Assembly: GCA_937141935.1 (NCBI GenBank)
Contig: CAKZQS010000031.1
Coordinates: forward strand, 1 to 52,247
Length of the DNA stretch: 52,247 bases
Direction: 5' to 3'
Source of the DNA: an uncultured Ectothiorhodospiraceae bacterium
GTDB lineage: Bacteria > Pseudomonadota > Gammaproteobacteria > Nevskiales > Oceanococcaceae
The notes under the pieces are model-generated. The model had not been told where the DNA came from and did not search any database. It was given only the letters and a program-made list of their open reading frames with translations. Below are positions 2,884 through 23,250 of the stretch, in pieces. Within the stretch, counting starts at the first letter, position 1; every line of letters begins with the position of its first letter. The position numbers and the translations under genes were made by a program.

Positions 2884-2884
2884 G

Positions 2885-4502: not shown

Positions 4503-4562
4503 TGCACCACCATAGCGCACCGCCAAGGTGCGCCGCCACCGCGCCCGCACCATAAATGTGCA
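4503..4562 (-). promoter_or_regulatory. Three NtrC-type enhancer dyads upstream of glnA
   Basis: Three 17-base dyads resembling the NtrC consensus TGCACCAWWWTGGTGCA, written on the minus strand: TGCACATTTATGGTGCG (4546-4562), CGCACCTTGGCGGTGCG (4516-4532, perfect dyad arms GCACC/GGTGC) and TGCGCTATGGTGGTGCA (4503-4519). Their centres lie about 84, 97 and 127 bases upstream of the predicted glnA start, like the enhancer sites of E. coli glnA. The two outermost centres are 30 bp apart, about three helical turns from each other on one face. They also lie between glnA and the divergent glyQ. Confidence 0.8.
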
Positions 4563-4634
4563 GCCCCACCCCCACGGGGGCGAGCCTGGCGCGGCAGCCT
4601 TAGAATGGGCGCCCTTTTGCCCGATCGGACGAGC

Positions 4635-5537: not shown

Positions 5538-7588
5538 GCGTCGACACCCTGCTGATCGAGATCGGCTGCGAGGATCTGCCGGCACGCTACCAGCGCCCGC
5601 TGGCCGAGACGCTACGCGATACGCTGGCCCAAGGCCTTGACGACGAAGGCGTTTCACGTGGATCGGCGCGGGCCTATGCCACGCCGCGGCGCATCGCCGT
5701 GTGCATCGAGGCCGTGGCGCACGCGCAGCAGGATCGCGCCATCGAGCGCACCGGGCCGGCGCTGTCGGTGGCACTGCGCGACGGCCAGCCCAGCCCCGCC
5801 GGCCTGGGTTTCGCCAAGTCCTGCGGCGTCGAATTCGACGCGCTGGAGCGCACCCAGACCGACAAGGGCGAGTATCTGCTCTACCGCGCCACGCAGCCCG
5901 GCCAGTCCACGCTGGAGCTGCTGCCCGAACTCTTCGCCCGCGCGCTGAAGCAGATGGACCGCCAGGTGCCCAAGCGCATGCGCTGGGGCGCCGGCGACGC
6001 GACCTTCGTGCGCCCGGTGCAGTGGCTGTGCGCGATGCACGGCGAGGACATCGTGCCGCTTACGGCCTTTGGCCTGGCGGCCGGCGCCGACACCTACGGC
6101 CACCGCTTCCATGCCCCGGTCGAGCTGCGCCTGGACCGCGCCGACCACTATGTCGAGCGGCTGCGCGAGGCCAAAGTCTGGGCGGACATCGACAGCCGCC
6201 AGGCCGAAATCGCCCAGCAGGTGCGCGCCGCCGGCGAGGCCCTGGACGGCGCGGCCCGCATCGACGCCGACTTGCTGGCCGAGGTCACCGACCTGGTCGA
6301 GTGGCCGCAGGCCGTGGCCGGGCGCTTCGAGTCGCGCTTTCTGCAGGTGCCGGCCGAGGCCATCGTGCTGACGATCCAGGACAACCAGCGCTATTTCCCG
6401 GTATTCGATGCCCAGGGCCAGCTGCTGCCGGCCTTCGTCACCGTGGCCAACATCGTGTCGCGCGACGAGGCGCAGGTGGTGGCCGGCAACGAGCGTGTGG
6501 TGCGCCCGCGGCTGGAGGATGCGCTGTTTTTCTGGCAGCAGGACGGCAAGCGGCCGCTGGCCGAGCGGCTGGACGAGCTGCAGCGCGTGACCTGGGCCAA
6601 GGGCCTGGGCAGCCTGCGTGACAAGGCGCTGCGGCTGGAGGCCCTGAGCGGCACGCTGGCGCCGCACTTCGGCGCCGATGCCGCCGTGGCCGCGCAGGCC
6701 GGGCGCCTGGCGAAGTGCGACCTGGTGACGCTGATGGTCTTCGAGATGCCCGAGCTGCAGGGCATCATGGGCGGCCACTACCTGCGCGCCGAGGGCGCCG
6801 ACGAGGCCGTGGCCGCGGCCGTCAGCAGCCATTACCGCCCCGCCGGCCCCGAGGATGCGCTGCCGGAGAGCTCCGCGGGGCGCGCCGTCGCCGCCGCCGA
6901 CAAGCTGGACACGCTGGCCGGCTATTACTCCATCGACGCGATTCCGACCGCCAGCAAGGACCCCTACGGCCTGCGCCGGGCGGCGCTGGGCCTGCTGCGC
7001 CTGCTGCTGGCCAGCGAATCGTCGGCCAGCTGGCAGGCGCTGCTGGGCGCGCCGGACTTCGCACTGAGCGCGGAGCAGACGCAGGCCCTGAAGGGCTTTC
7101 TGCAGGAGCGACTGCGCGGCCTGCTGACCGAGGCCGGCCTGCCCGCGCAGTGCGTGGCCGCGGTGCGCGACAGCGCCGCCGGCCCGCTGGACACGCAGCG
7201 CCGCGCCGCGGCCGTGGCCGGCTTCATGCGCACGCCGGCCGGCGATGCGCTGGCCGCCAGCTCCAAGCGGGTGCGCAACATCCTGCGCGGCGCCCAGGGC
7301 GAGGCGGCCGCCGACATCGACCCCGGGCGCTTCGAAGCCCCGGCCGAGGAAGCACTGCATCAGGCCCTGCGGCAGGGCGAGTGGGAGGCGGCGCTGGACG
7401 AGGCCGACTACGCCGCCGCGCTGGCCCAGCTCGCCGCGCTGCAGGCGCCCATCGACGCCTTTTTCGCCGATGTCATGGTCAACGCCGAGGATGCCGCCGT
7501 GCGGGCCAACCGGCTGGCACTGCTTGCGGCCTTCGATGCCGCCTGCAGCCAGGTCGCCGACTTCGAGGTGCTGGCCAGCGGCGGTTAA
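5534..7588 (+). CDS. glyS: Glycyl-tRNA synthetase beta subunit
   Basis: Partner of GlyQ that carries tRNA recognition. 684 residues (E. coli 689). It begins with the typical [14 protein letters not shown], has the HD-like core ([30 protein letters not shown]) and the C-terminal DALR anticodon-binding region ([18 protein letters not shown]). The start at 5534 has AGGAGG upstream inside glyQ and overlaps its stop. The 80 bases after the stop, before the converging peptidase gene, show no clear terminator. Confidence 0.97.
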
Positions 7589-7668
7589 GTGAGGGCGAGG
7601 GTGAGCCGGACGGCGCGGAGGTCGCGCTGCCGGGGTCGGTGTCAATCCGCGTTAGCGCTGTTGAAGGG

Positions 7669-8433
7669 CTACGTCGCGGCCAGGGCCAGGCCGAAGTGGC
7701 GCTCGAGCTCGGCATACAGCGCCGGGTGCGCTTGCTGGAGGGCCGCGGGCTCCTGCACATAGCTCTCACAGAGCACGGCAAAGAATTCGGCCGGCGACTC
7801 GCAACCATATTCGTCGATGACCGGGCTGCCGTGGCGCTGTAACGCCTCGTAGGCGGGCGCCATCACGGCGGCCCAGCGCTGCGGGTCGGCGCCCTCCGGC
7901 CGGCCCTGCCCCAGCGGGTCGAGCTGGTGCGCGCACTCGTGCACCACCACATTGACCGGGCTGCCCGCCAGCGCCTGCTGCGCATCCGGCCAGGAGACGA
8001 CGATGCGCTGCGCATCCCAGGATTCGCCAATGCGCTCCTCGGGCTCGTCGGACACGATGCCCAGCTCATCCGGCTCGGGGTCGTGGACCACGAAGGCGCC
8101 GGGATAAACCAGCACCGAGCGCAGCTGCGGGTAGGGCGCACCGGCTTCGCGCAGGCTCAGCAGGCAGGCCTGCGCGGCCAGCAGCACGGCCATCTCGCGG
8201 TCCACCTGCAGGCCGTTGCAGCCGTAGTAATCCTTGTCGCGCACGAAGGCGGCCACCTGCTCCGCCAGCCGCTCGCGCTGGCCCGCGCTGAGCTGCGCGT
8301 ACTGCGGCAGCCGCTGCAGCAGGGCCTGCTCGGCGGGCGGCAAGGGCGGCGGCGGCGCGGGCCGGCGCGGGCGCAGCGCCCAGAGCAGCACGCCCACGGC
8401 GGCCGCCGCCAGCAGCAGCAGGCCGCCCGTCAC
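7669..8433 (-). CDS. MtfA-like zinc metallopeptidase (M90 family), membrane-anchored
   Basis: About 254 residues resembling MtfA (DgsA/Mlc-binding aminopeptidase). The zincin motif HECAH lies in VVVHECAHQLDPLG, and the downstream SPAEFFAVLCESY supplies the third ligand Glu, as in the family. Immediately after the chosen GTG start (8433) comes a hydrophobic stretch (GGLLLLAAAAVGVLLWAL) and a basic, proline-rich segment, so it should be tethered to the inner membrane; E. coli MtfA is soluble. The frame continues upstream to 8604 without an ATG near the homologous region, so the start is uncertain. It follows the lipoprotein hydrolase by ~100 bases, probably in one operon. Confidence 0.82.
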   Translation of the reverse strand: MTGGLLLLAAAAVGVLLWALRPRRPAPPPPLPPAEQALLQRLPQYAQLSAGQRERLAEQVAAFVRDKDYYGCNGLQVDREMAVLLAAQACLLSLREAGAPYPQLRSVLVYPGAFVVHDPEPDELGIVSDEPEERIGESWDAQRIVVSWPDAQQALAGSPVNVVVHECAHQLDPLGQGRPEGADPQRWAAVMAPAYEALQRHGSPVIDEYGCESPAEFFAVLCESYVQEPAALQQAHPALYAELERHFGLALAAT

Positions 8434-8533
8434 CGCAAAGGCCGCGTGGTCAGGTCCATGCCGCCATTGTCGCCGGCCGCAGCCCAGCGCGCCGCAGCCC
8501 AGCCCGCCGCAGCACGGCGCGTCGCGGCCAGAT

Positions 8534-11176
8534 CTAGAAGGCCGGCAAGGGTGGGCAGGGCACCGTCTCGCCGTTGTCCGGGTCGGCGAAATCGTGCAGC
8601 TCAATCACGTCGATCAGCCGGCCTTGCGGGTGCAAGAAGTGCGACTTCTGGCAACGGCCATAGCCATCGCGCTTGAAGGCCGGGTCGTCGTGCGGGTCGC
8701 GTGCGCCGTCGGCCGCCGAGGGCGCCTTGTTCACCGTGGGCGGCTGCTGGGTGCGGATGTCGTCGTACATGATGATGGCGCTGCCGGCCGCCTGTACCGG
8801 GTCGGCATAGTCCAGCGGCGGGATCGCATACATCGGCTCGGCGTCCAGGTGGCGCACGTAATCCGGCTCCTGCTGGCCCAGCTCGATCAGCGTCTGCTCG
8901 ACCCGCTGCACCTGGCGCGGGTCGCCGGCGAGCTGCGGGCTCAGCGAGCGCGCCATGACCTCAGCCGACCAGTGGGTGACCTGAAAATCGCCATAGGAGG
9001 GGTGCAGCAGCAACTGCGCATGCGAGCCGGCCAGCTCCGGGCCCTCGACCAGGTGATTGGCATAGCCGTTGTTTTCGCTGCGGTCCCAGATCATCTGGAT
9101 CAGCGAGAAGCAGATGTTGCGGTCCAGGTCGTCCTGGTAGGCGAAATACAGCGGCACCGAGTACAGCGTGAAGCCGGTCGAGCGGCGCAGCAGCAGCGAG
9201 TAGTTCATGCCCAGTGCGCCCAGCACGCCGCGCTCGATGTCGTGCGACAGGCCGGCCACCACGCCCCCCAGGATGCCGCCCTGGCTGTTGCCGTCGTAGA
9301 AGATGTCCTCGTTGCGGAACAACGGCTGGCCGTTCTCGTCCTGGAAGGCCGGGTGGCTGCCAAAGCCGTCCGGGTGGCGCAGGGCGCGGGCCAGGAACAG
9401 AAAGTTGAGCATGCCCTGCTGGCTGGCATCCGGCACCACCGGGAACTGCGACAGGTCGACCAGCGTCGAGGCGACATTGGCCAGGTCGCCCGAGGCAAAG
9501 CCGAACCAGTCGATGGTGCAGAACATGAAGTCGTGCTCGCGCGACATCTCCGGCACCCGGTCGTAGCCCACCGCGGCACGGGAATCGAGCAGGCCGTGGC
9601 CGTAAACGCCGGCCCGGGTCGTGGCGCCGTTGGCGGTGTCCGGAATCTGGCAGATGAAGGGCACGTTCTGCACCTGCTGCACGAGGTCGGGCAGGCCATC
9701 GCCATACAGCGCCAGCAGCGGGTCGGCCGCGGCCACGGCCGGGTCGCCGTCGCTGGGGTCGTAGAACAGCCGGTTCGGCGGCGTGGACAGGCCGCTGGCC
9801 AGCGTGGTGCCCTCGAACAGCGCCGAAAACTCCTCGGGGAATGCCGCCTCCATGGCCTCCAGCACCGCCTGCACCGCGGGGTTGCGGCCCAGCGGATCGG
9901 CCGGAATCAGGAAGCTCGGCACCTCCAGCGTGCCCTCAACGCGGCGGAACATGCCGGCCTCGCGCTCGTCCTGCGGGGCCTGACTGCTGACGCTGAAGCT
10001 CGGCGCATCGCCAAGCTCGGCCACGGTGTTGTCGGGGTTGCGGGTCTCGCCCAGCTGCGCGAAGGCCACATCGCGCATATGCCGCAGCCGGCCCACGTTG
10101 CTCCAGCCGCTGGCCACGGTGAAGTCCCAGGCCAGGTGCAGCTCCTGCCGGGCCACGTCCGGCGGCAGGTTGGCGAAGACGTTTTGCTCCAGCTCGGCGC
10201 AGCGCGCGGCCAGGGCCGGGTAGGTGGACAGGTCCGCGCCATCGCGGCAGGCCACGAAGCCGGGCGGCGCCGGGATCTGCTGGCCCTCGCTGTCGAGCAA
10301 CTCGCGCAGCAGCACCAGGTAGCGGCGGCCATCGCGGAAGTTGCGCGCCGGGCGGATCAGCAGCGCCGGCTGCGCGGGCCGCGGGTTGGCGACCATGTCC
10401 GGCAGCGGGCAGTTCTCCTCGGCATCAGGAATCCTATCGACACCGGGCGCCCCGCAGGCGGCCGAGGCCGGCATCAGCTCGCCGGCATTGGTATCGAGCT
10501 CGGTCCAGATCAGTTGCCGCTCGCCGGTTTGCGCGTCGACCACCATGATCGGCGCCTCCGCATCGAAGCTGCGCGCGATGTCGGTCAGCGGCACGGCGCC
10601 GCTGCGCTCGAGATCGAGCCCCGGCACATAGGTCAGCAGCAGCGCACCAGGCGAAAAGCCGTCGTTGCGGTTCCACTCGGTGGGGTCGATGGGCTTGCCG
10701 GCGATGTTGCGCGGCATGCCGGCCAGCGGCAGGTCCACGCGCAGCCCGGTGCCCTGCTCCGCCTGCGGCGAGCCCCCCGGCGCGGCACTGGTGAAGTGGT
10801 TGTTCGGGAAGGGGTGCAGGCAGTGCGTGCCATCCACCGGGTCGCAGCCGCGCAACTGGCTCTCCAGCTCCAGCGGCAGCAGGTCGGCCGGGCCGGGCTC
10901 GGGGTCGAAGCGCTCGCCGACGCGGCGGCCGATGGCCGGCGTCGGGCTCGGCGTAACGCCCGGGCTGGCGCCCGGCGTAGGGCTGACGCCCGGCGCGCCG
11001 CTGGGGCCGGGGCTGGGGCTGACCGCCGGCGTGGGTGTCACGGCGCCGCTGGGGCCCGGCGTGGGCGACACGGCGCTGCCCAGGGCCTGGCCCTGACGGC
11101 CGCCGGAACCGCCGCAGGCGGCCAGCAACAGGGCGGCGCCGAGCAGTGTGGCGTGTGCGGGGATGATTCGGTTCAT
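8534..11176 (-). CDS. Lipoprotein with alpha/beta-hydrolase-type serine motif
   Basis: 880 residues. A lipoprotein signal ends at LLLAAC (Cys21), followed by GGSGG and a Pro/Ser/Thr/Gly linker of near repeats (about 30-85) typical of envelope proteins that reach away from the membrane. The large C-terminal domain contains FYDGNSQGG with Ser631 in a GxSxG nucleophile elbow, several Cys residues, and is otherwise unrecognised. It is probably an outer-membrane esterase/lipase-like hydrolase; the substrate is unknown. The start has GGAGGAG. Only 35 bases separate it from the stop of the giant ceramidase-like gene upstream, so the two are probably co-transcribed. Confidence 0.75.
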   Translation of the reverse strand: MNRIIPAHATLLGAALLLAACGGSGGRQGQALGSAVSPTPGPSGAVTPTPAVSPSPGPSGAPGVSPTPGASPGVTPSPTPAIGRRVGERFDPEPGPADLLPLELESQLRGCDPVDGTHCLHPFPNNHFTSAAPGGSPQAEQGTGLRVDLPLAGMPRNIAGKPIDPTEWNRNDGFSPGALLLTYVPGLDLERSGAVPLTDIARSFDAEAPIMVVDAQTGERQLIWTELDTNAGELMPASAACGAPGVDRIPDAEENCPLPDMVANPRPAQPALLIRPARNFRDGRRYLVLLRELLDSEGQQIPAPPGFVACRDGADLSTYPALAARCAELEQNVFANLPPDVARQELHLAWDFTVASGWSNVGRLRHMRDVAFAQLGETRNPDNTVAELGDAPSFSVSSQAPQDEREAGMFRRVEGTLEVPSFLIPADPLGRNPAVQAVLEAMEAAFPEEFSALFEGTTLASGLSTPPNRLFYDPSDGDPAVAAADPLLALYGDGLPDLVQQVQNVPFICQIPDTANGATTRAGVYGHGLLDSRAAVGYDRVPEMSREHDFMFCTIDWFGFASGDLANVASTLVDLSQFPVVPDASQQGMLNFLFLARALRHPDGFGSHPAFQDENGQPLFRNEDIFYDGNSQGGILGGVVAGLSHDIERGVLGALGMNYSLLLRRSTGFTLYSVPLYFAYQDDLDRNICFSLIQMIWDRSENNGYANHLVEGPELAGSHAQLLLHPSYGDFQVTHWSAEVMARSLSPQLAGDPRQVQRVEQTLIELGQQEPDYVRHLDAEPMYAIPPLDYADPVQAAGSAIIMYDDIRTQQPPTVNKAPSAADGARDPHDDPAFKRDGYGRCQKSHFLHPQGRLIDVIELHDFADPDNGETVPCPPLPAF

Positions 11177-11211
11177 ATCTCCTCCATCAGGGCAGCGCGT
11201 TCGCCCGGCGC

Positions 11212-14200
11212 CTAGCGCCGGGGCTCCGGCGGCGGGGCGGGATCGGCGGGGCAGTCGGGGTAAGCCGTGCCCGCGCGGTACCAGATCGGCGCCGACATGG
11301 CGACGACCGCGTTGTTGCGCAGGTCACGCACACGCATGAAGCTCCAGCCTTCCTGGTCGGCCAGCGCCTCCGGTGGCCGGTAGTCGAGCTGCAGGTCGGC
11401 ATTGCCGCGCACACCGTCGCGCTGGCTCAGGCTGCCATCGGCGTGAACGAGTTCCACGGCGTAATCCGCGAGCCGGCCGGCCGGGTCGTCTACGCGCAGC
11501 GAAAACTGCAGCGTCGTGCCGGCAGGCGTGGCGACCCGCGAGCCCATCGGCCAGCTGGCTCCGCCGGGGTTGCGCAGCTCGAAGCCCAGGCGCAGGTCGT
11601 TGAAGCCCTGGGCTAGCGCATAGAAGCGGCGCGCGGCCATCGCCGATTTCAGCGCCGCACGGCTGTGATCGGCGGCGAGCAGCACGGTCTTGGCCCGCTC
11701 CGGCTGGGCCCATTGGCGGCCGTGCTCATCCTCGGAGCCAATCGGCCCCAGATGCCAGCCGCGGCTCAGCGCATAGGCATACCAGCCACCCTCGGGCGCA
11801 TTGTTGTCGGCGTCATAGGCATCGCTGCTCTTGCCGAAGACCTCGATGCCGACCATGCGCGCGTCGGCCTCGGGCCGGTAGGCGAGCATGTTCCAGGCAT
11901 AGGCCGCATCGCCGATGGGCGAGTTGGCGTGGATGTCGTCCTCGCGGCCAGGGTGGTTGAAGACCGCCAGGCCGTCATCGCCACCGCCCACGGCCGCCGG
12001 CAGCCCGAACCAGAGCCAGAAGTCTTCCATCGACAGCGCGTAACCCGTTCCGGTCTTGGCGTTCAGGTCGTGCTGCGAGAAATAGACGTTGATGTGGCCA
12101 AAGCGGTCCGAGGTCCATTCGAAGCCGCGGAAGGGCATGTAGCCCGGCTGCGCGGCGGCATCGGCCATTTCCAGCGTGCGCTCCCATTTGCGCAGGCCAT
12201 CGGGCGTGAGCTGCAGGCAGTCGAGGAAAGCCGGCCCCAGGCAGTCGGTGTTGGCCGTGAGCGGCAGGCGGGCGTTGTCCGAATGCTCGCTGCTGCCCAT
12301 GAAGTCCAGGCCCAGCGCCGCGCCGGCGGCGAAGTAATCGGCCGGCGTGCTGCCGATGTCGCCGTCGGAGTAGCCGCTGTGTTCGTGCAGCGAGCCCAGC
12401 AACGCCTGCAGGCCGGCCGGCGCCGGCACGTTGCAGGACTGCGCGCTGGCCGTCAGTGGCAGCAGCGGCGGCGGCGTCAGCGGGATGGCCGTGGTCTGCA
12501 GGGGCGCCCGGATGTTGTTGGCATAGGGCTCGGCCAGGTTGCGCGGCTGCGCGCTCGGCACGATGTATTGCCACTGCCGGGCGTCGATCTCCGTGGTGGC
12601 CAGCGGCGTGAAGGCGTTGTCGCTGTCGTGGGTCACGAAGTAGTGCACGCCATGGCTGCCATGCGCCCCCTGCCGCTGCAGGCAGTCGGCGAAGGGCGGG
12701 TTGCTGTAGTCCAGCGGCCGCCCGGCCTGGGCGTCGTAGTCGGCGCGCACGCGCCCGCCGCCCCAGTCATAGCTCTCGCCCGGCCAGGGCCGCGCCACCG
12801 GGTCGTCGCCGGTGCCGTCGTCCAGGCAGGCGTCGTCGCGGTAATAGGGCACCACCAGCGGGTTGGCCAGCGAGGTCAGGCCGACCAGCTCGAAGCTGTA
12901 CACCAGCGAACCAGCATCGCCCTTGCCCGAGACCTGCTCCCAGTTGTCGAAGGCCAAGGGCAGGTTGAAGCTGGGATCGGCGGCGTCGAAGAAGGCCGGG
13001 CAGCGGCCATTGCTGGCCGGCGCCTGAGGGCCGCCGTCGCCGATGCATTCGGCCAGCGGCAGCGGCGCATAGCCGTCGACATTGCCCAGGTCGTCATTGA
13101 TGCCGTCGATGGGCACACCCTGCGGCCGCAGCATCGTGTAGTAGCGGCCGGGCTCGACGCCCGCGTCCCGCTCGGCCGCCGTGGGCACCATCGCGCTGCG
13201 GTTGTAATCCCAGCTGGTGTACAGGCCATCGGGCGGAATCGGGTGCACGCGCACGCGGTAGTGGTAGCTGATGGCGTCGCGGTAGAAGCTCTCGGTCTTG
13301 GTCACATTGGTGCCCGAGTCGGCGCCCCAGACCTCGCGGATGCAACGCACCGGGCCGCAGCGCTCGCCGATCAGCGAGCTGTTCGCCTCCCAGTTGACCT
13401 GCTCATCCTCGAAACCGACCAGCGAGATCACCGAATCCGGCGACTGCTGGAAGGCGCGGCCCTTCCAGCGGTCCAGCAGATCCGGCCGGCTCTGCCACTG
13501 CGCCGGGTCGGTCACCGCCGCTTCCGGCGGGCGCACCCGCAGGTCGCGCAGCATCCAGCGGCCGCTGGCCTCGAAGCGATAGGTTGGCGTGTGCACGGTG
13601 ATGCCATCGCGCGGGAAGCGGTCGCTCGAGGGGCAGATATAGACCCCCTGCGCCGCATCGAACTCGCACTGGCCGTCGTCGCCGTGGTAGTCGGCGAGGT
13701 CGGCCACGCAGACGGTGCCCTCCAGGTTGGCGCCGTAGCCGGTGTTGCTGCTGCCTAGCTTTTCCGGGTCATCGTCGCGGAACAGGCGGCGGTCGATCCA
13801 CTGGTCGGCGTCGGCCGCGCGCTGATAGTCCACATAGCCGCTGTCGGCATTGAAGCTGCTGCCCCCGGGCTTGAGCACCACGTAGACAAAGCGCTCGGCG
13901 TCCGGCCGCAGCGGGTCATGCACCCGCAGCATCTGCACGGCCTGCCAATCGGCCGGGAAGTCCAGGCCGGTGTACAGCGTGCCGGCGTCGCTGGCCATGA
14001 ACACGACCTCGTCGTCGGCATCCAGCCCGCGCACCGGGTCGGGCACCGGCCCCACGCCCGGCGGGTAACGCCGCTCGCAGGGGCCGTCGACCATCATCCA
14101 GCTCTCCTGGCCCCAGCCGTGGGCGTCGTCGCCGTTGTCCCAGACATAGCTCAGCTCGGGGTCGGTGCCCGAATAGGTCGAGAAGTCCGAGTTGGCATTG

Positions 14201-17200
14201 GCCAGGAAGTAGGGCATGCGCTCGTCGACCTGCACCGGGATCTCGACGAAACCCGCCGCGGCGTCGTAGCGGTAGGCGGCGATGCCCTCCACCGGCACGG
14301 CGCTGCGCGAACCGGGGCTGCCGGGCACGGGGTAGAGGATCTCGCCGTTGTGCGCGTCGCGCACCTGGCCGGGACCGAAGGCGTCGAGCACGGCGCCGCT
14401 GGTGGCCGCGCCACTGGGGTAGGGGTAGCCCACGCCATGCGCGGCGGGCACCGACCAGCCTGGCAGCTGCGCCCCGGTCAGCACCACGGGCGCGGCCTCG
14501 CGGGCCGTGCCCAGGGCCTGGGCGGCCACGGCATCGAGTTCGCCATCGGTGCCCAGGCCGGTCTCGCCCGGGCGCGTGGGGTCAAAGCCCTGCGCGCCCT
14601 CGGCCAGCGCGGTGCCGAAGTCCTCCAGCGCCTGCTGCGCATGCGCGGCGGCCGCGGCGGGGTCGGAGTCGAGCAGCGCCGTCAGCGCCGGGTTGGTCTG
14701 CGCGCCCAGATCCGCCAGGGCGCCGATCAGGCCGGCGCCACGGCCGGCTTCGGCGCTGCCCGGCAGGCCGGCGGCTACCCACTGGCCGCTGTTGCCCCAG
14801 GCATCGAAGACCTCCAGTGCCAGCGGCGCCGCGGCCAACTGCAGGCGGGCCTGCGGCGGCGACTGGCTCTCGTCGACGAATACGCCGGGGTTGTCGATGT
14901 CGCGCACGCCGCTGGCGTCGGTGACCCGCGCGCGCTGCAGGCTGCGCACCGGTGCGGCCAGCGCGCCGTCGACCTCGGCATCCACCACGCGGTAATTGCG
15001 CGGCACCGGGCGATAAGCCAGCGCGAACTGCCCGGCGTCCAGCTCGGTCAGGCGCAGGTCAGCGGCCGGTGTGACGGCGAAGCCGGCGCTTTGCACGCTG
15101 TAGTCCTCCTCGCCCAGGAAGCCGGCGGCCTGGCCGTCCAGCGCGAAGCGGTAGCGGCCCTCCGGCCAGTCGCGCGGGGCCTCGAACTCCACGGTCCACA
15201 GGTGGCGGCCGCTGACGAAGCGATAGGACAGGTGCGCCTCGGCGGCGCCCTGCATCGGCTCGCCGTTGGGGCGCGTGGCCACCGCCCAGGCGCCCGGGCC
15301 GGTTTGCACTTCGATGCGTAGCCGCGGCGTGGACACCACCGGGTCGCCGCCCTCGAAGACGAAGCGCGTCGCCGCGAAGCGGGCGATGTCGGCCGGCTGC
15401 TCCACGACCTGGCCCAGCAGCAGGCTGGGGATGCGCGGCGCCGGCGGCAGCGCCTCGTACAGGCTGCGGTAGAGCGAATAGTCCAGCGGGAAGTCGTCAC
15501 GCGGCGCGGCCGTGTTGTCGCGCAGCGCCGTCAGCAAGTCGGCGCTGACGTCGAGGAAGCGCGCCCCCTGCAGCCAGCCCCAGAAGGTGGTGGTCGACTC
15601 GGCGCCGCCCAGCGTGGCCCAGTCCTGCTGCTCGGGCGGCAGGATGTAGCCGATGTGGTCGCCGGAATAGCCCCAGACAAAGGTGTCCGGCGCGGCAAAA
15701 CCCAGGCCCTCGGCGCGCTCCAGCAGGCGGCGGCCGTATTCGACCAGCGGCTCGCCGGGCTGCAGCAGCAGCGTGATGTCGCCGATGCGGGCGGCCGTCA
15801 GGATCGTGTCCTGCGGGTAAAAGGCGCCGTTTTCGGCCACGCCGTTGTCGATCAGATCGATGGCATCGGGCGGCGGCGAGAACAGGCAGTAGGGGATCTG
15901 CTCCGGCGCGCCGGAGCCGCCATAACCGGGGATGTCGCGCACGCCGCCGCCGACGAAGGGCACGCCGATCTCGTTACCGCACTGGCCCGCGCCCCAGGGG
16001 TAGGGGTATTCCTCGGCCGCATAGCCCAGGCTCTCGCGGTCCAGCCGTACCCGCTGGCTGACGGCGCGCAGATCGGGCTGCCGCTGCCATTGCTGGATGC
16101 CATTCGCCAGCGCGGCCACCTGCGGCGCCAGGCGCTTGCCGTAGCTCTCGATGCGCTGCAGCTTGTTGTCGTTGGAAATGCCGCGCGGGCTGACGTCGCC
16201 GCCGACGCTCTGCACCAGCATCGCCAGCGGCACGCCCATCAGCGCCTCGGTTTCGCGCTCGACGGCGCCCAGCACATCGCCGGAGAAGAACAGATTCTCC
16301 ACATCGAAGGCGATGCCATGCGCGGCCCAGTTGACCACGATGGCCAGCGGGCGGTTGTCGGCCACATCGTCGATGCGCAGCACGCCCAGGCGGCGGCGCA
16401 GCGCGGACAGCGCCGCCTCGTCGTAGCTCTCCAGCCGGCCGCGGCGGAAGCCGTTGAGGCCGCGCTGCTCGGGCGCGCTGGCATGGCCGATGCGCGCCTC
16501 GCGCATCTGCGCCGGGTCCAGCGCCGCCACGACCACGTCGCTGAGCTGGCCAATCAGCTTGCGATAGACCTCGTGCTGGTACACATCCATCGCCAGCCAG
16601 AAATAGCGCGTGGAATGGTTGGCCAGCGCGCCGGGGCCGCCGTGGCTGTGGCTGGCCGACATCAGCAGCCCATCGCCGAGGTCGATGCCGGTGCGCTCGC
16701 GCACCGCGGCCTTCACGTCCTGCACCACCTCGTCGAGCATGCCGATGAAGTCGGTCTTGACCAGCACCAGGTAGTCCTGGCCGTCGTGCAGCGCAACGGC
16801 CTTGGCCACCAGCGCGTCGTAGACGCCGCGGCTGGGCGGCGAATAGGTGGCATAGGGCGAATGCGCGGCGCGCAGCTCGTCCGGCAGCGGCGCCAGCGGC
16901 GGGCAGCTGGCCGGGTCCTGCGGGTCGCAGGCATCGGCCATGCGCGGGATGAAATCGACCAGCTCGTCGAAGAACACGCTGGGGTCGCCGCTGGCAAAGG
17001 CCTCGGCGCCGGGGATGTATTCACCGGCCACCGGCGGGCGCAGGTAGCCGCCCAGCGGCGTGCCGATGGGCACATCGAGCACCGCCTTGGCGATGCCGGC
17101 CCGCAGCGGCTGCGGGCTGTGCGCGACCGGCGCCGGCTTGGCGCCCGGCGGGTCGAGCTGGCGCCCGCTGGCCGCGCCGAGGGCCTGCATGTACGCCGCG

Positions 17201-20200
17201 AGATTGTCGGCGGCGTTCTGGCCCAGGCCGGCCAGCACGGCATCGCTGGCCCCCTCGGGGTCGCCGGCGGCCAGCAGCTCCAGCGCGCGCAGGAAGGCCT
17301 GCGGGTCGGCGCCCGGACCGGCGCCGGGGCCCTCGCCCTGGGCATCACCCAGGGCCGCGCAGGTCTGCGTATCCACACCCAGCGCATCGCACAGCGGGCG
17401 CAGCGGGGTGTCGGGGTTGAGCAGCGCGCAGAACTCGGGCTGGTTGAAGTCGTCCAGGCAGCGCTGAGCCAACTCGCGCTGCGTGTAATCCAGCCGCCGG
17501 CCCATGTCGTTAACGATGCAGTCCGGATCCAGGGGGTCGGCACAGGCGCGCAGGTAGGCCGGCAGTGTCTCCGCCCCGGGCGCCACATCAAACAAGGGGT
17601 TGTAGCCCTGCAGCTTGAGCAGCGGCGCCGTCAGCGGCCCCAGCGACACGAACTCCTCGTAGCCGGTGAACGGCAGCGTGAAGCCGTCGTTCCCACTGGT
17701 GTCGATATAGCTGAATTCCTCCTCGGGCAGGATGTAGCCAAAGCTGTTCTGGGTCAGGCCAAAGAGCATGACCTCGGCCTGCGGCGCGGCCAGGCCGCGG
17801 ATGTAGCGGCCAAAGGTGTCGGAGGCCTCGCCGGGGATCGTCACGATTTCCAGCCCCTGCTCGGCGCCGCCGATGGTGATGCGGGTCACCGGCGTCACCG
17901 CGTAGGGCGCGGCCTGCGGCAGCTGGTACAGGCCCTGCTGCAGCTCGCCGCCAACGCCGGGGATCAGGCCCACGGGCGCCTCGACAAAGTCGTAATAGCG
18001 GTTGAAGGCGCCGATCAGGCCGGCGCCGACGAACAGCGGGTTGGTCACCGGCAGGTAGACGGTGGCATTGCGCAGCGCCAGCTCCGGCGCCAGCGTCTTG
18101 ACCGCCGGCTCGTCCAGGCCGGCCGCGGCCATGCCCTCGCCACGGCAGTGCACGCGGCCGTAGTCGCGCAGCGCATCGCCATAGGGGTCGGTGGGGTCGC
18201 AGCCGGGGCGGCTGCCGCTGGGGCTGGCATCGGCGATGGGGCCGTTGAAATACAGGCCCACGCCGCCCTCCTCCTCGAGCGCATCGACCACGCCGAGGAT
18301 GTAATCGGCGTGGGGCACCCGCGGGCTTTCGTTGATCGAGGTCGGGTGCGCGCTGTATTGCAGCAGGCTGGCCAGCAGGCGGCCATCCGGCGTGCGCGCC
18401 TGCAGCAGCCGCAGCTGCTCATCGGCCGTGTCCCGCGCGTCCAGGCGCGGCCGGCGGTAGTTGTTGTAGTCGCCGGTTTCCAGGCTGCGCAGGCTCAGCG
18501 TGGCCACCTCGGCCTGGGTCAGCGCCTCGGCGGCCGCGGCGGCGGCCCGCGGGTACAGCGTGTTCTCGATCCAGTCCTGCGGCACCCCGCCCCACAGGCC
18601 CTGCAGGTCCGGGCCGGCATGGCTGTGCGACTGACCGAAGACAATGCGCTCCACCGGCACGCCGGTAGCGGCCGCGACGGCGGCCTTGAGCGCGTTCTGG
18701 ATGATGTTGCCAGCACCCACGGCATCCAGCGTCAGCAACAGCACCGGGGGCTGCCGCGTGCCGGCCGCGTCGACCTGTTCCAGCGCCAGGGCCCGCAGCC
18801 AGATGCGCTCTTCGCGCAGCAGGCTGCCGTCGCCGCCCTCCACGCGCAGCGTGGGCTGCTCGGCCGGGGCGGTGAGCTGGTCGCCGAAGGCGCCGATGGG
18901 GTCGGGGAAGTTTTGCAGCGGGTCGATGCCAAAGCCGCCCAGGTTGAAGCGCTGGCGGTGGGCGCCGACAAAGAGGCGGTCCTCGTCCACGCCCTCGATG
19001 TGCGCCAGGCTGGGGGCGACGTCACGCTTGGCGGCGCCCACGCGCAGCACCGCGCGCGGCACGACACGCAGCGTGACGCCGGCTTCGGCCGTGCCGCCGT
19101 CGGGATCCTCGACCCGCAGCGTCAGCGCGTAATCGGTCTGCGCCTGTACCTCGGGGGCCGTAAGCGTCGCGTTGAGCTGCGTCGGGTCGGCAAAGACCAC
19201 GGCGCCGGGCCCCTCCCAGCGCGCCTGCAGCGATTCGACAGGGCTCTCGACATCGCTGGCGCTGGCCGTCAGGGCCAGCTCCTGGCCAGCCACGGCGATC
19301 TGCAGGGCCGGGGCATCGATGCGCGGCGGGTCGTTGACCGGGCGCACTTCGATGGGCTGGGTGTAGGCCACGGTATTGGCAGCGTCGGCGACCTCGAGCT
19401 CGAAATCCACGCTGCCAGCGAAGTCGGGCGCCGGCGCGTAGGCCAGCGTGCCGTCCTCCTCCAGCGTCAGGCTGCCGCTGGCGACGTCGCGGCGCAGCGT
19501 GTAGCGCAGCGTTTCGCCATCGACATCGGTCTGCGGCAGTTCCGCGGCGAGCGGCGTGTCCTCATCCGTGGCCAGCGCCAGCGGCGTGGCCGGTGGCAGG
19601 TCGTCCACCGGGTTCACGCGGAAGCGCTGCCGCGCACGGCTGATGTTGCTGCCGTCGCTGACGCTGAGCCAGGCGCTGTCCTCACCGGCGAAATTGGGCG
19701 CCGGCGTGTAGCGGAATTCCGTGGGGCCAAGCTGCTGCAATGCGCCGTTGCCCGCCGGCTCGGCGGCAAAACTCAGCGGCTCGCCTTCGGCATCGGTGGC
19801 GCTGACGCTGAAGTCGACGCTGCCGTCCTCGTCCAGCGTCTGCAGGCTCAGCGGGTCGAAGGCCGGCGCCGCGTTGACGGCCGTTACCGTGATGCTCAGC
19901 GTCGCGCTGGCGCCCTGGCCGGCGCTGTCGCGCACGCGCAGGCGCAGCGTGTCCTGGCCGACGAAGCCCTCGTTCGGCGTATAGCGCAGCCGGTTGCCCG
20001 CCAGCGTGGCACGGCCGTTCTGCGGCCCCTCGATCAGCGCGTAACGCAGCGTGTCGCCGGGGTCGCTGGCCTGAATCTCATAGTCCAGCGTCGCGCCGCT
20101 GACCACGCTGGCGAACTGGTCCTCGATCTGCGGCGGCGGATTGGTGCCCAGCACCTGCACGACGTGCTCGGCACGGCCCAGGCCCTGGGCGTTGCGGCTC

Positions 20201-22188
20201 TCGGCGGCAAAACGCAGCGTCAGCGCAGCCTGCGTGCGCGGGGCCACGAAGCGCAGGCTGTCGCCCTGCGGCTGCAGCAGCAGCGAGGGCCCGGCGAGCT
20301 GCTGCCAGCGGATCGGGCCGGTGTCGGCCGTCAGGCGCTCGGCCCTCAGCATGACCGGCGTGCCGCCGGCCACCGCGTCGGGGCCGTCGATGCGCAACCG
20401 CGGCGGCTGCGCCACGGCGGCCACGAAAATCTGCACCGTGTCGGTGGAACTCAGGCTGCCGTCGCTGGTTTCGAGCTCGAAGCGCAGGCTTTGGGCTTCG
20501 CCCTGGCGCGGCGCCGTGAAGCGGGCCACGGCCTGATCGGCCCCCTGCAGGGCGACGGCCGGGCCGTCCACCTGGCGCCAGCGGTATGTCAGCGGCGCGG
20601 CCTCGGGGTCGCGGCTGGCGCCGCCATCGAGCAGAACCGCCTGACCGGCGGCCACCCATTGATCCGGCCCGGCGACCGCCAGCGGCGCTTCGCCCGGCGC
20701 GCCGGCGCTGCTGGCCGGCAGGCCCAGCACCCGCACTTCGGCGCGCTCCGACTGCGCGCCGTCGCTGACGATGACCTCATACAGCGCTTCGCCGCGTGTG
20801 GCCAGGGCGGCCGGCAGCGTCAGCGTGGCGGTGTCATCGCCGGCCTCCAGCAGCCAGTCCTCGGGCCCATGCACGCGGGCCCAGCGAAAACTCAACGCGG
20901 CGTCGCCGCCGCTGGCGGCCACGCGCAGGCTCAGCTGTTCGCCGCCATAGGCGCGCTGCTCGGCCGGCAGATACACGCGCAGCGGGTCCGTCTGCGGCGT
21001 CACGCGGATCGTGACCGTGGCGCGCCGCTCGAGCAGGCCGTCGCTGACGGCCACGTCGACACGATCATCGCCATGAAAGTCCGCATCCGGGCGATAGCGC
21101 AGCAGGCCATCGGGCGACAGCGTGGCCCGGCCCGCGCTGGGCGGCCGGACGATGCGCAGCGCCAGGTCCGCCGGCGCCGATTCGTTGTCCTCCGGGCGCA
21201 GCTGCAGTTCGCCCTGGCCGTCCTCGACCACGGTCAGCAGGCTACCGGCGACGCGCGGCGGGCTGTTGTCGCCGCTGGGGCGCAGCGCGATCGGCAACCG
21301 CTGCTGCGCGGTCGCCCCCGCGGAATCGCTGACGCGCAGCTGCAGGCGCACCACGCCGGGCGCGGCGTCCGCCGGTGCGCGCAGCGTCGGGTTGGGGGTA
21401 TCGGCGTCCTCCAGCGTCACGGCGGGGCCAGAGAGCTGCTGCCAGCGCCATTGCAGCGCCTCGGTCGATTGCTCAGCATCGCGCACGGCGGCGCTGAGCG
21501 TCAGGCTTCCGCCGGGCAGCAGCCCCGCGGCCGGCGCCTGCAGCTGCAGAATCTCGGGGCGCGCATTGGGGCGCCCGCCGGCCGCATCCAGCGCGGCCTG
21601 GGTGGCGTTCAGGTGCGCCAGCGCCGCCTCGGCCTCGGGCAGCGTCGCCGCCGGGTCGCCGTGCACACGGCGCAGCAATGCGGCGATTTGCTCATTGCCG
21701 CCCAGGTCGGCGCGGCTTTGCGCCAGCGCGGCGTCGAGGCCGGCGACCAGGCCGGCATCCAGCCAGCGCGCCAGGCGGGCATCGAGGTCGATGCCGGTGC
21801 TCGGGTCGCGATCCGCATCCAGCCCCTGCAGCAAGCGGGCCAGGTTCTCGACCCGCTGCGCGCTGGGCAGCTGCCCCTGCGGCAAGCGCAGCGCGGACAG
21901 CGTGACGGCCGGCGCGCCCGGCGCCTGGCCCAGCAGCCAGTCGCCCAGGCGGAATTGCAGGCTTTCGCCGCTGGCGAAGTCGAAGCGGCCCTGGGCATCC
22001 GTCCGCCCCGCGCTGCCACGGTCGCCGGCATAGTCCACACCGGACACCGCGGCGTCCAGCAGCACCCCCTGGCCGTCCTGCAGGCCGGGGCCACGCGCGT
22101 CGTCGTTATCGCTGCCACTACAAGCCGCCAGCAGCAGCGCACATACAGCCAGGCCCCCGCTACGCAGGCCCCAAGGTATCGTTGTCAT
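11212..22188 (-). CDS. Giant multidomain lipoprotein: Ig-like repeats, two neutral-ceramidase-like domains, PHP metallohydrolase domain
   Basis: 3,658 residues. Lipobox LLLAAC (Cys23) followed by SGSDNDD, so probably outer-membrane. Residues ~207-1046 form about nine Ig/cadherin/PKD-like units of ~90 residues. Domain ~1047-1545 and domain ~1693-2260 both resemble neutral/alkaline ceramidase (N-acylsphingosine amidohydrolase). Likely zinc ligands: His1188, His1281, Glu1454, Tyr1485 in the first; His1847, His1957, Glu2146, Tyr2181 in the second. Nucleophile candidates are Ser1322 (ADASP) and Ser2000 (GGDVSPR). Residues ~2600-3240 are unrecognised. A PHP/CehA-McbA-type metallohydrolase domain (~3262-3500) shows LHEHSGYSDG (His3268, His3270), SSEHSD (His3302), NHPGR (His3412) and SEDEHG (His3489), then a beta-rich tail. 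The ATG at 22188 has GGGGGAGA upstream. The frame is open for 11 kb. Confidence 0.85.
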   Translation of the reverse strand: MTTIPWGLRSGGLAVCALLLAACSGSDNDDARGPGLQDGQGVLLDAAVSGVDYAGDRGSAGRTDAQGRFDFASGESLQFRLGDWLLGQAPGAPAVTLSALRLPQGQLPSAQRVENLARLLQGLDADRDPSTGIDLDARLARWLDAGLVAGLDAALAQSRADLGGNEQIAALLRRVHGDPAATLPEAEAALAHLNATQAALDAAGGRPNARPEILQLQAPAAGLLPGGSLTLSAAVRDAEQSTEALQWRWQQLSGPAVTLEDADTPNPTLRAPADAAPGVVRLQLRVSDSAGATAQQRLPIALRPSGDNSPPRVAGSLLTVVEDGQGELQLRPEDNESAPADLALRIVRPPSAGRATLSPDGLLRYRPDADFHGDDRVDVAVSDGLLERRATVTIRVTPQTDPLRVYLPAEQRAYGGEQLSLRVAASGGDAALSFRWARVHGPEDWLLEAGDDTATLTLPAALATRGEALYEVIVSDGAQSERAEVRVLGLPASSAGAPGEAPLAVAGPDQWVAAGQAVLLDGGASRDPEAAPLTYRWRQVDGPAVALQGADQAVARFTAPRQGEAQSLRFELETSDGSLSSTDTVQIFVAAVAQPPRLRIDGPDAVAGGTPVMLRAERLTADTGPIRWQQLAGPSLLLQPQGDSLRFVAPRTQAALTLRFAAESRNAQGLGRAEHVVQVLGTNPPPQIEDQFASVVSGATLDYEIQASDPGDTLRYALIEGPQNGRATLAGNRLRYTPNEGFVGQDTLRLRVRDSAGQGASATLSITVTAVNAAPAFDPLSLQTLDEDGSVDFSVSATDAEGEPLSFAAEPAGNGALQQLGPTEFRYTPAPNFAGEDSAWLSVSDGSNISRARQRFRVNPVDDLPPATPLALATDEDTPLAAELPQTDVDGETLRYTLRRDVASGSLTLEEDGTLAYAPAPDFAGSVDFELEVADAANTVAYTQPIEVRPVNDPPRIDAPALQIAVAGQELALTASASDVESPVESLQARWEGPGAVVFADPTQLNATLTAPEVQAQTDYALTLRVEDPDGGTAEAGVTLRVVPRAVLRVGAAKRDVAPSLAHIEGVDEDRLFVGAHRQRFNLGGFGIDPLQNFPDPIGAFGDQLTAPAEQPTLRVEGGDGSLLREERIWLRALALEQVDAAGTRQPPVLLLTLDAVGAGNIIQNALKAAVAAATGVPVERIVFGQSHSHAGPDLQGLWGGVPQDWIENTLYPRAAAAAAEALTQAEVATLSLRSLETGDYNNYRRPRLDARDTADEQLRLLQARTPDGRLLASLLQYSAHPTSINESPRVPHADYILGVVDALEEEGGVGLYFNGPIADASPSGSRPGCDPTDPYGDALRDYGRVHCRGEGMAAAGLDEPAVKTLAPELALRNATVYLPVTNPLFVGAGLIGAFNRYYDFVEAPVGLIPGVGGELQQGLYQLPQAAPYAVTPVTRITIGGAEQGLEIVTIPGEASDTFGRYIRGLAAPQAEVMLFGLTQNSFGYILPEEEFSYIDTSGNDGFTLPFTGYEEFVSLGPLTAPLLKLQGYNPLFDVAPGAETLPAYLRACADPLDPDCIVNDMGRRLDYTQRELAQRCLDDFNQPEFCALLNPDTPLRPLCDALGVDTQTCAALGDAQGEGPGAGPGADPQAFLRALELLAAGDPEGASDAVLAGLGQNAADNLAAYMQALGAASGRQLDPPGAKPAPVAHSPQPLRAGIAKAVLDVPIGTPLGGYLRPPVAGEYIPGAEAFASGDPSVFFDELVDFIPRMADACDPQDPASCPPLAPLPDELRAAHSPYATYSPPSRGVYDALVAKAVALHDGQDYLVLVKTDFIGMLDEVVQDVKAAVRERTGIDLGDGLLMSASHSHGGPGALANHSTRYFWLAMDVYQHEVYRKLIGQLSDVVVAALDPAQMREARIGHASAPEQRGLNGFRRGRLESYDEAALSALRRRLGVLRIDDVADNRPLAIVVNWAAHGIAFDVENLFFSGDVLGAVERETEALMGVPLAMLVQSVGGDVSPRGISNDNKLQRIESYGKRLAPQVAALANGIQQWQRQPDLRAVSQRVRLDRESLGYAAEEYPYPWGAGQCGNEIGVPFVGGGVRDIPGYGGSGAPEQIPYCLFSPPPDAIDLIDNGVAENGAFYPQDTILTAARIGDITLLLQPGEPLVEYGRRLLERAEGLGFAAPDTFVWGYSGDHIGYILPPEQQDWATLGGAESTTTFWGWLQGARFLDVSADLLTALRDNTAAPRDDFPLDYSLYRSLYEALPPAPRIPSLLLGQVVEQPADIARFAATRFVFEGGDPVVSTPRLRIEVQTGPGAWAVATRPNGEPMQGAAEAHLSYRFVSGRHLWTVEFEAPRDWPEGRYRFALDGQAAGFLGEEDYSVQSAGFAVTPAADLRLTELDAGQFALAYRPVPRNYRVVDAEVDGALAAPVRSLQRARVTDASGVRDIDNPGVFVDESQSPPQARLQLAAAPLALEVFDAWGNSGQWVAAGLPGSAEAGRGAGLIGALADLGAQTNPALTALLDSDPAAAAAHAQQALEDFGTALAEGAQGFDPTRPGETGLGTDGELDAVAAQALGTAREAAPVVLTGAQLPGWSVPAAHGVGYPYPSGAATSGAVLDAFGPGQVRDAHNGEILYPVPGSPGSRSAVPVEGIAAYRYDAAAGFVEIPVQVDERMPYFLANANSDFSTYSGTDPELSYVWDNGDDAHGWGQESWMMVDGPCERRYPPGVGPVPDPVRGLDADDEVVFMASDAGTLYTGLDFPADWQAVQMLRVHDPLRPDAERFVYVVLKPGGSSFNADSGYVDYQRAADADQWIDRRLFRDDDPEKLGSSNTGYGANLEGTVCVADLADYHGDDGQCEFDAAQGVYICPSSDRFPRDGITVHTPTYRFEASGRWMLRDLRVRPPEAAVTDPAQWQSRPDLLDRWKGRAFQQSPDSVISLVGFEDEQVNWEANSSLIGERCGPVRCIREVWGADSGTNVTKTESFYRDAISYHYRVRVHPIPPDGLYTSWDYNRSAMVPTAAERDAGVEPGRYYTMLRPQGVPIDGINDDLGNVDGYAPLPLAECIGDGGPQAPASNGRCPAFFDAADPSFNLPLAFDNWEQVSGKGDAGSLVYSFELVGLTSLANPLVVPYYRDDACLDDGTGDDPVARPWPGESYDWGGGRVRADYDAQAGRPLDYSNPPFADCLQRQGAHGSHGVHYFVTHDSDNAFTPLATTEIDARQWQYIVPSAQPRNLAEPYANNIRAPLQTTAIPLTPPPLLPLTASAQSCNVPAPAGLQALLGSLHEHSGYSDGDIGSTPADYFAAGAALGLDFMGSSEHSDNARLPLTANTDCLGPAFLDCLQLTPDGLRKWERTLEMADAAAQPGYMPFRGFEWTSDRFGHINVYFSQHDLNAKTGTGYALSMEDFWLWFGLPAAVGGGDDGLAVFNHPGREDDIHANSPIGDAAYAWNMLAYRPEADARMVGIEVFGKSSDAYDADNNAPEGGWYAYALSRGWHLGPIGSEDEHGRQWAQPERAKTVLLAADHSRAALKSAMAARRFYALAQGFNDLRLGFELRNPGGASWPMGSRVATPAGTTLQFSLRVDDPAGRLADYAVELVHADGSLSQRDGVRGNADLQLDYRPPEALADQEGWSFMRVRDLRNNAVVAMSAPIWYRAGTAYPDCPADPAPPPEPRR

Positions 22189-22257
22189 GTCGTCTCCCCC
22201 GCGCGGGGTGGTGCAGTCTTTCAGCCTTCTCCAGCAACAGTTTAGCGGCGAAACTTC

Positions 22258-23250
22258 GTGTACCGGTTCGTAAATTCTTTGTGCCTGGGCCACAGCCTGC
22301 CGGCGAGCGGGCTGGCCGGAGCCCTGCCGCGGGCCGCCCTGGCGCTTGCCGTTTTAGCAGCCGGCTCGGCCGCCGCAACGGAGCCGCCTGGCGCCCGCGA
22401 GGAGACTTGCGCCGAGCCGCCGCAGGGGCGCTGGCGAATCGTGGGCCAGCGGCGGCTGCCGGCTGAGATCTACCTGCAAGGCTTTGAGATCGACGCCGCG
22501 GGCCACTGGTGGCTGAGCGGCGGCCGCTATGGCGAATCGGCGCTGTGGACGCTGTCGCCGCAGGGCTCGCCGCGGCGGCCGCGGCGCCAGGCGCTGCCCG
22601 AGCACATCTTTGCCGAGGGCCTGAGCCGGCGCGACGGCGCCAGCTGGATACTGAGCTGGCGCGCCGGCGAGTTGCGCCGCTGGGCGGATGGCGCGCCGGC
22701 CGCCGAGGTGGTGGCGCGCTATGCGGGCCAGGGCTGGGGGCTGGCCTGGGTGCCCGAGCGCGAGGCCTTCGTGATGAGCAATGGCGGCAGCCAGCTGCAA
22801 TGGCGGGCCGCCGCGGACTTCGCGCTCCAGGCGCAGACCCCGGTCCGCCGCGGCCGCGTGCCGGTGCCCTGGCTGAACGAGCTGGAATGGCAGGCCGGCG
22901 CGCTGTGGGCCAATGTCTGGCGCAGCGATGAGCTGCTGCGCATCGACCCCGACAGCGGCTGCGTGACGCTGGTGCTGGACCTGGCGGGGCTCTGGCCGCC
23001 GGGCGAGCGCCCGCGCCGGGCCGAGGTGCTCAATGGCGTGGCCGTCGACCCCCGGGACGACCAGCTCTGGGTCAGCGGCAAGCTGTGGGGGCGGGCCTTC
23101 GCGCTGGACTGGCAGGCGCCGGGGCAGGAGTGGCAGCCCCCGATGCGGGACGAACAGCCGCCGGACCAGGAAGAACCGCCAACAGCGGAGGGCCAGCCTG
23201 CGGCACAGGATCAGCCTGCGGCGTTGGGCCAAGAATCGCCCAGGCAATGA
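22258..23250 (+). CDS. Glutaminyl-peptide cyclotransferase (bacterial beta-propeller type), exported
   Basis: Converts N-terminal glutamine of exported proteins to pyroglutamate. 330 residues including a signal-like hydrophobic stretch (ALALAVLAAGSAAA, about 27-40). Family signatures: YLQGFEID near the start of the propeller, GQGWGLAWVPEREAFVMSNG, LNELEWQAGALWANVW and VLNGVAVDPRDDQLWVSGKLW. The last ~40 residues are a Gln/Pro/Glu-rich tail of near 5-residue repeats, not part of the enzyme fold. Divergent from the giant lipoprotein with a 69-base spacer. The GTG start at 22258 is the longest reading; no convincing ribosome binding site decides it. Confidence 0.85.
   Translation: MYRFVNSLCLGHSLPASGLAGALPRAALALAVLAAGSAAATEPPGAREETCAEPPQGRWRIVGQRRLPAEIYLQGFEIDAAGHWWLSGGRYGESALWTLSPQGSPRRPRRQALPEHIFAEGLSRRDGASWILSWRAGELRRWADGAPAAEVVARYAGQGWGLAWVPEREAFVMSNGGSQLQWRAAADFALQAQTPVRRGRVPVPWLNELEWQAGALWANVWRSDELLRIDPDSGCVTLVLDLAGLWPPGERPRRAEVLNGVAVDPRDDQLWVSGKLWGRAFALDWQAPGQEWQPPMRDEQPPDQEEPPTAEGQPAAQDQPAALGQESPRQ

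Follow-up and report, generated by a model that had tools for sequence, protein, structure and literature searches.

A giant predicted lipoprotein joining two neutral-ceramidase-type domains to a conserved unnamed module and a PHP-type domain

Neutral ceramidases (PF04734; solved structures 2zws and 4wgk, the Pseudomonas aeruginosa and human enzymes) are, to our knowledge, single enzymes. The stretch of DNA analysed here, a complete contig of 52,247 nucleotides from an uncultured Ectothiorhodospiraceae bacterium (CAKZQS010000031.1 of assembly GCA_937141935.1; hereafter the window), encodes instead a 3,658-residue lipoprotein in which two divergent copies of such a domain, here called cerA and cerB, follow a stalk of immunoglobulin (Ig)-like repeats and precede a conserved module without a family name (mid) and a PHP metallohydrolase domain. 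The catalytic fold of neutral ceramidases is common to cerA, and the zinc-ligand positions are common to cerA and cerB, whereas identity is only 17-27% and cerA lacks the C-terminal domain. The other parts of the protein have described counterparts as well. Bacterial Ig and tandem-95 repeat proteins (PF17963, NF012211) share the stalk, but the giant protein bears enzyme modules C-terminal of its repeats. The CehA/McbA metallohydrolases (NF038032) share a PHP core with the metal residues HxH, E/DH, E, H, H, E and DxH, from which the giant's domain differs in scoring below the curated family cut-off and in being fused to ceramidase-type and mid modules; PMC8292978 describes CehA and McbA as carbamate hydrolases of the esterase type for which histidines are essential. 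Galactose-mutarotase-like supersandwich proteins (1snz and the PL26 lyase 5xqo) have a fold that the model of mid weakly resembles, at ~10% identity. Finally, an Oceanococcus-type Ig-mid-PHP lipoprotein of 1,729 residues (L049; L018 from the same contig, L017 from the same genus) has the Ig-like stalk and the mid-PHP junction in common with the giant, with mid 75% and PHP 54-56% identical, and has no ceramidase domains. By tblastx, the window and the region of this Ig-mid-PHP gene share scattered short matches only, among the matches listed. The enzyme folds are already known; their combination appears to be new.

We read the protein as a multi-hydrolase at the surface of the cell, with lipids that contain amide and ester linkages, probably N-acyl lipids, as its substrates, and put the probability of this reading at roughly 0.6. 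With two zinc amidase domains, an ester-type PHP domain, a neighbouring gene for an alpha/beta-hydrolase-like (ABH) module and a lipid anchor, degradation of such lipids at the surface would be the most economical account. The protein would be exported and held in the outer membrane through lipid on Cys23, with the Ig-like repeats as a stalk. Beyond the stalk would stand four modules: two zinc amidases that share the fold of neutral ceramidases, a beta-sandwich (mid) resembling those of carbohydrate enzymes, and a PHP hydrolase related to CehA/McbA. The ABH hydrolase would come from a second lipoprotein, encoded just downstream. In this scheme cerA and cerB would cut amide bonds and ABH and PHP ester-type bonds, mid would recognise or act on the polar head group, and all modules would jointly dismantle, outside the cell, a complex molecule that is a lipid or resembles one.

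A single frame with a lipobox and a repeat stalk

The gene, with the order Ig-cerA-cerB-mid-PHP, occupies 11212..22188 on the minus strand, with its ATG at 22188 and its stop at 11212. An initial annotation, which left the strand unstated, had described a single 11-kb frame of 3,658 residues, and the sequence bears this out: the open frame spans 11212-22293 and runs without a stop for 3,658 codons from the ATG, which is preceded by a ribosome-site-like GGGGGAG stretch, and the coding signature is uninterrupted, with a third-position guanine-plus-cytosine (GC) content of 0.91, the same as in the coding frames of the window. All the motifs cited in that annotation were located, LAAC at residue 20, LHEHS at 3267, SSEHS at 3299, HPGR at 3412 and EDEHG at 3486. 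On the opposite (plus) strand, 15655-22245 is a 2,196-codon open frame whose codon-position GC pattern is reversed; it is therefore an antisense shadow of the giant gene.

A frame of this length invites the suspicion that separate neighbouring genes were joined by an assembly or sequencing error. Some relatives do have the modules as separate adjacent genes (L054, L062), the window is one entire contig of a 52-contig draft, and the junction between cerA and cerB (a linker of ~81 residues, 17116..17358, minus strand) was seen, among the frames examined, in this genome's own assembly only. However, neither reading frame nor coding signature is interrupted, and the other junctions recur: cerB is followed by mid in four other genomes, over a linker of 137-149 residues compared with 124 here, and mid by PHP in three others, over 23-26 residues compared with 22. 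Given this recurrence we judge a chimera very improbable, the cerA-cerB junction being the one for which this assembly is the sole witness.

The N-terminus encodes a lipoprotein signal (22120..22188, minus strand), in which a regular-expression check found the lipobox LLLAAC at residues 18-23 after a hydrophobic signal; Cys23 is followed by Ser and then by an acidic stretch. Residues ~205-1043 (19060..21576, minus strand) form about nine Ig/PKD/cadherin-like units, counted by eye. Overlapping Pfam matches here include Big_9 (2.2e-52, five stretches), K319L-like PKD and Cadherin_5 (four stretches each) and Cadherin_4, and the NCBIfam tandem-95 repeat matches at 1.7e-56. The LAAC lipobox and the nine or so Ig-like units proposed at the outset are thus both present.

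Ceramidase-type, mid and PHP modules

Two ceramidase-like domains had been predicted, and both hold up, cerB through Pfam and cerA through alignments and a predicted structure. cerB comprises residues ~1692-2430 (14899..17115, minus strand). The full-length Pfam scan places Ceramidase_alk (PF04734) at residues 1779-2002 only, in cerB (E 3.5e-10), which passes the gathering cut-off with 39.6 against 32.1 bits; among solved structures the best relatives of the cerB profile are neutral ceramidases (2zws at 1e-14, the next at 4.7e-11), an assignment by profile only, with no structure model. cerA comprises residues ~1048-1610 (17359..19047, minus strand), and of 19 relatives aligned with it, 17 have a PF04734 match at E<=10, the best at 3.8e-11. 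In Foldseek, a model built from 19 sequences (mean predicted local distance difference test score, pLDDT, 78.5; predicted template modelling score, pTM, 0.82) finds 2zws (7.8e-21) and human 4wgk (3.3e-19). By VIA-align, 2zws reaches Z 30.3 with a root-mean-square deviation (rmsd) of 3.1 over 375 residues and 4wgk Z 28.3, while the next unrelated row stands at Z 8.7. The match stops at residue 485 of the 646-residue 2zws chain, so that cerA, as modelled, corresponds to the catalytic domain and lacks the C-terminal one.

The zinc ligands of 2zws we take to be His97, His204, Glu411 and Tyr448, and counting along the alignment finds those residues at those positions of its chain. Their equivalents are H1188, H1281, E1454 and Y1485 in cerA, kept in 19/19 aligned rows, and H1847, H1957, E2146 and Y2181 in cerB, kept wherever the alignment covers them (each His in 6/6 rows, Glu and Tyr in 8/8; nine rows in all, with partial rows set aside, three for His and one for Glu/Tyr). 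The Ser equivalent to residue 274 is kept in 18 of the 19 cerA rows and is Ala in one. This conservation bears on the idea that the enzyme domains have decayed and that the protein serves mainly as an adhesin or scaffold. The large repeat stalk would suit such a role, as would a cerA without the 2zws C-terminal domain, but metal ligands conserved across divergent relatives indicate that selection keeps the sites, and we regard decay as quite unlikely.

If cerA and cerB were genuine ceramidases, with mid handling the sugar head and ABH and PHP removing esters, the protein would be a machine for degrading ceramides or glycosphingolipids. The neutral ceramidase fold of cerA, the complete zinc site in both copies and the match of mid to carbohydrate-active supersandwich proteins all agree with this. 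Against it, both domains are far from bona fide ceramidases, and the genome already has an ordinary neutral ceramidase (L010; 845 residues, matching 2zws at 4.9e-88), to which cerA and cerB are 23-27% identical, so that cerA and cerB may act on other substrates; in Actinomycetota and Deltaproteobacteria bins, moreover, mid occurs with none of the other modules. Because of the normal enzyme and its distance from cerA and cerB, we put the chance of true ceramide degradation at about one in three. In all, a genome search found six PF04734 stretches in five frames of this genome. Elsewhere in it, a 587-residue protein (L009, G000:C46, 1866-3626, minus strand) is a cerA paralogue that stands alone; its identity to the giant's cerA is 55-60%, and its lipobox is followed by NGGR.

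The mid module (residues ~2555-3236; 12481..14526, minus strand) had been passed over as ~640 unrecognised residues. It is in fact a conserved module of ~690 residues, with 41 aligned sequences that are 46-80% identical to the window's copy. The window segment has no Pfam family match, and the few matches among aligned members are weak and scattered. The predicted model (pLDDT 74.5, pTM 0.82) has galactose mutarotase 1snz as its top VIA-align match (Z 10.3, rmsd 3.4, 210 of 696 residues aligned), and the PL26 lyase 5xqo reaches Z 9.9 (rmsd 4.2, 296 aligned). These values weakly suggest a beta-supersandwich of the kind found in carbohydrate-active proteins, and the VIA-align list is compatible with other folds.

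The PHP domain (residues ~3259-3638; 11275..12414, minus strand) was likewise correctly foreseen, as the alignment of its metal residues and a profile match of the segment attest. Taken alone, the segment matches the NCBIfam CehA/McbA model NF038032 at E 4.1e-20. The same model picks up 15 of the 19 aligned members at E<=10, with 9.2e-31 as the best value. The metal residues are invariant in 19/19 rows except E3301, the residue preceding the second-motif His, which is D in 5/19. Pfam assigns DUF3604 to 11 of the 19 members and PHP (PF02811) weakly to 4 (best 0.0019); PF02811 has no match in the window's own segment. A full-length NCBIfam scan gives a weak PHP match only (PRK07945, E 0.18, residues 3258-3306), and the PHP profile finds weak matches only among solved structures (best 3e38, E 0.038).

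The kinship with CehA and McbA, which cut carbamate esters (PMC8292978), lends weight to the possibility that the modules act on other amide or ester substrates and that the fold of neutral ceramidases is reused as a general zinc amidase. Such substrates could be N-acyl amino acids, lipopeptides, or polymers of a carbamate- or polyester-like kind. Divergent ceramidase-type copies are also abundant in the order. We take this possibility seriously while placing it below even odds.

Fusion and adjacency of the modules in other genomes

Comparison with relatives brought out a further component that the initial annotation had missed. The ABH module was first seen between cerA and mid in relatives and was afterwards located in the window's next gene, an 880-residue lipoprotein at 8534..11176 on the minus strand, 35 bases downstream of the giant. 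Its NSQGG motif is invariant in 11/11 rows, and at E<=1 Pfam finds only weak matches, Lipase_bact_N in 2 of the 11 rows and Peptidase_S9 in one, with none in the window protein; from its sequence we call the module alpha/beta-hydrolase-like.

Each module was searched for, at E<=0.001, in the order's 85 genomes sampled here. Of these, 33 have mid and/or PHP (17 with mid, counted by reading the list), and the other modules are also frequent: they occur as follows, ABH in 44 (33 above 200 bits), cerA in 35 (28 above 180 bits) and cerB in 27 (7 above 800 bits), the weaker cerB matches falling largely on a related third ceramidase-like type, cerC. A scan of named bacterial genomes for mid and PHP gave 49 loci, among them Oceanococcus, Algiphilus, Fontimonas, Solimonas, Sinimarinibacterium, Perlucidibaca, Spongiibacter and others, along with Actinomycetota, Deltaproteobacteria and Chloroflexi bins. 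The neighbours of mid were listed as raw frames in eight loci, two of them gammaproteobacterial. Mid is rare across the class as a whole, since a draw of 369 class genomes returned a strong match in this genome only, plus two weak partial ones of 21-22 bits.

A recount with local profiles at >=100 bits found 44 frames with two or more kinds of module, in 26 sequence clusters that we grouped into 24 genomes, this one included. Single frames reach ~6,300 residues. Algiphilus (2,860 residues) and Fontimonas (2,596 residues) have cerA-ABH-mid chains and Spongiibacter thalassae an ABH-cerB-mid chain (3,697 residues); longer still are a cerA-ABH-ABH-cerB-mid-cerC chain of 6,141 residues in the stretch mapped (6,247 in the search of the order) and an ABH-PHP-cerB-mid-PHP-cerC chain in Spongiibacteraceae UBA5047, open at one end at 6,304 residues. 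By eye, the Spongiibacter thalassae chain (L067, 950-12040) also has TSP3-like repeats and what we take to be a CocE/NonD-type hydrolase ahead of ABH-cerB-mid. Elsewhere the modules are neighbours: Sinimarinibacterium sp. CAU 1509 (L054) has, in a row on one strand, cerA, mid, cerC and a frame with strong cerC and weak cerA-like matches. A fifth frame follows, cut by the locus end, which PHP matches weakly at 20.6 bits; a lipobox is present in four of the five. In L062, L064 and L055 the genes for cerA, cerC and mid likewise lie together. Among gammaproteobacterial frames not cut at their start, a lipobox is present in 25/39 single-module and 16/20 multi-module frames (duplicates unmerged).

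The fusion of modules in some genomes and their adjacency in others argues that the parts work together, and they probably break down one kind of molecule. The best matches differ from module to module, mid being closest to Algiphilus (78%), PHP to UBA5047 (62%), cerB to an order member (67%) and cerA to a Salinisphaerales bin (60%), a pattern of identities which fits module shuffling. ABH is fused behind cerA in 17 frames from 16 other genomes by the same grouping, whereas in the window it is the separate next gene; a simple reading is that it would have moved out of an ancestral cerA-ABH-cerB-mid chain. A second giant frame in this genome (L007, G000:C44:16000-30062, frame 4209-14063; 3,285 residues, cut by the contig end) has a weak cerA-like match, cerC, TSP3/PKD-like repeats by eye, and ABH behind a signal-like stretch; its TSP3/PKD part is nearly repeated where the contig ends, possibly through a join made in assembly.

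The initial annotation knew of no described protein with this arrangement. Among the literature matches listed (most subscription papers and all preprints lay outside scope), none that we recognised describes the chain, the family of mid or the system of modules. The arrangement is not isolated, however, the same modules being fused or adjacent in many related genomes, which the initial annotation had also missed. The role it proposed, processing of N-acyl lipids by a cell-bound protein with a second hydrolysis by the PHP domain, is plausible. Recurrent fusion ties a strongly conserved mid family and the ABH family to ceramidase-type and CehA-type hydrolases, which brings the joint function of the modules within reach of a direct test on a few purified domains. 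If that joint function were confirmed, the modules would be a lipid counterpart of multi-enzyme carbohydrate-degrading chains, and the neutral ceramidase fold would seem to have spread to other substrates in marine and soil bacteria. Going further, we tentatively propose, at somewhat less than an even chance, an undescribed class of surface-anchored multi-hydrolases, in which ABH, mid, PHP and two or three amidases of the ceramidase fold, five or six enzyme modules in all, are shuffled between lipoprotein genes and chains of up to ~6,300 residues and jointly degrade one widespread N-acyl (glyco)lipid, with mid as a new catalytic family.

Counter-evidence and the rest of the window

Several observations weigh against the surface lipid hydrolase that we favour. 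The window's cerA segment has no Pfam PF04734 match even at E 10, so we file cerA by fold and not as a family member, and in structural alignment no more than 17-18% of its residues are identical to those of neutral ceramidases. Against NF038032, whose curated cut-off is 80 bits, the PHP segment reaches 72.4, so we file it as CehA/McbA-related and not as a member; the same model is absent from the full-length NCBIfam scan of the giant protein. The mid model has no Foldseek match at E<=0.001.

The distribution of the modules supplies further counter-evidence. The closest relatives lack the arrangement and some of the linkage: G002 and G003 have Ig-mid-PHP proteins of 1,729 residues without ceramidases, and their single cerA and ABH genes lie far off or on other contigs; in G001, of the same genus, PHP, cerA and ABH genes are on separate contigs and mid has no match. 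In the loci examined outside the gammaproteobacteria, mid stands without the other modules, save for an ABH frame beside it in L096, and only 1/28 mid frames there carries a lipobox. Several of these loci (L068-L085, L087-L091, L094, L096 and L097, in bins of Actinomycetota, Deltaproteobacteria and Chloroflexi) lie on short contigs, and in some the mid frame is truncated or divided.

Nor do the flanking genes with Pfam matches hint at a pathway, being mostly housekeeping. Upstream of the giant and divergent from it is a glutamine cyclotransferase gene (22258-23250, by Pfam). The others include a sigma-54 regulator, a histidine kinase, glutamine synthetase, both glycyl-tRNA synthetase subunits, an M90 peptidase, a Na/Pi transporter, dehydrogenases, S-adenosylhomocysteine (SAH) hydrolase, S-adenosylmethionine (SAM) synthetase, methylenetetrahydrofolate reductase (MTHFR), transketolase and glyceraldehyde-3-phosphate dehydrogenase (GAPDH). 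At 45931-47286 on the minus strand lies a DUF1329 protein (4.9e-114) with a LolA-like match. Near the contig end, 50001-52000 has a GC content of 0.54, compared with ~0.66-0.75 elsewhere, and is possibly foreign DNA; the frame at 51018-51758 encodes a methyltransferase.

Many lipoproteins of this genome (G000) carry A-C-x-G-G-R directly after the lipobox (for example L118, L120, L122, L125, L126, L128-L130, L137-L141 and L147). In four genomes of the family this pattern outnumbers its reverse by 74/40, 26/10, 36/15 and 41/18 (1.9- to 2.6-fold), while in 17 other relatives the ratio stays <1.8, the largest excesses being 27/18, 20/12 and 7/4. Of 74 places in this genome 30 were read, and 14 of these are long frames after a hydrophobic signal. 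To judge from these patterns, A-C-x-G-G-R after the lipobox is possibly a family-specific lipoprotein sorting signal.

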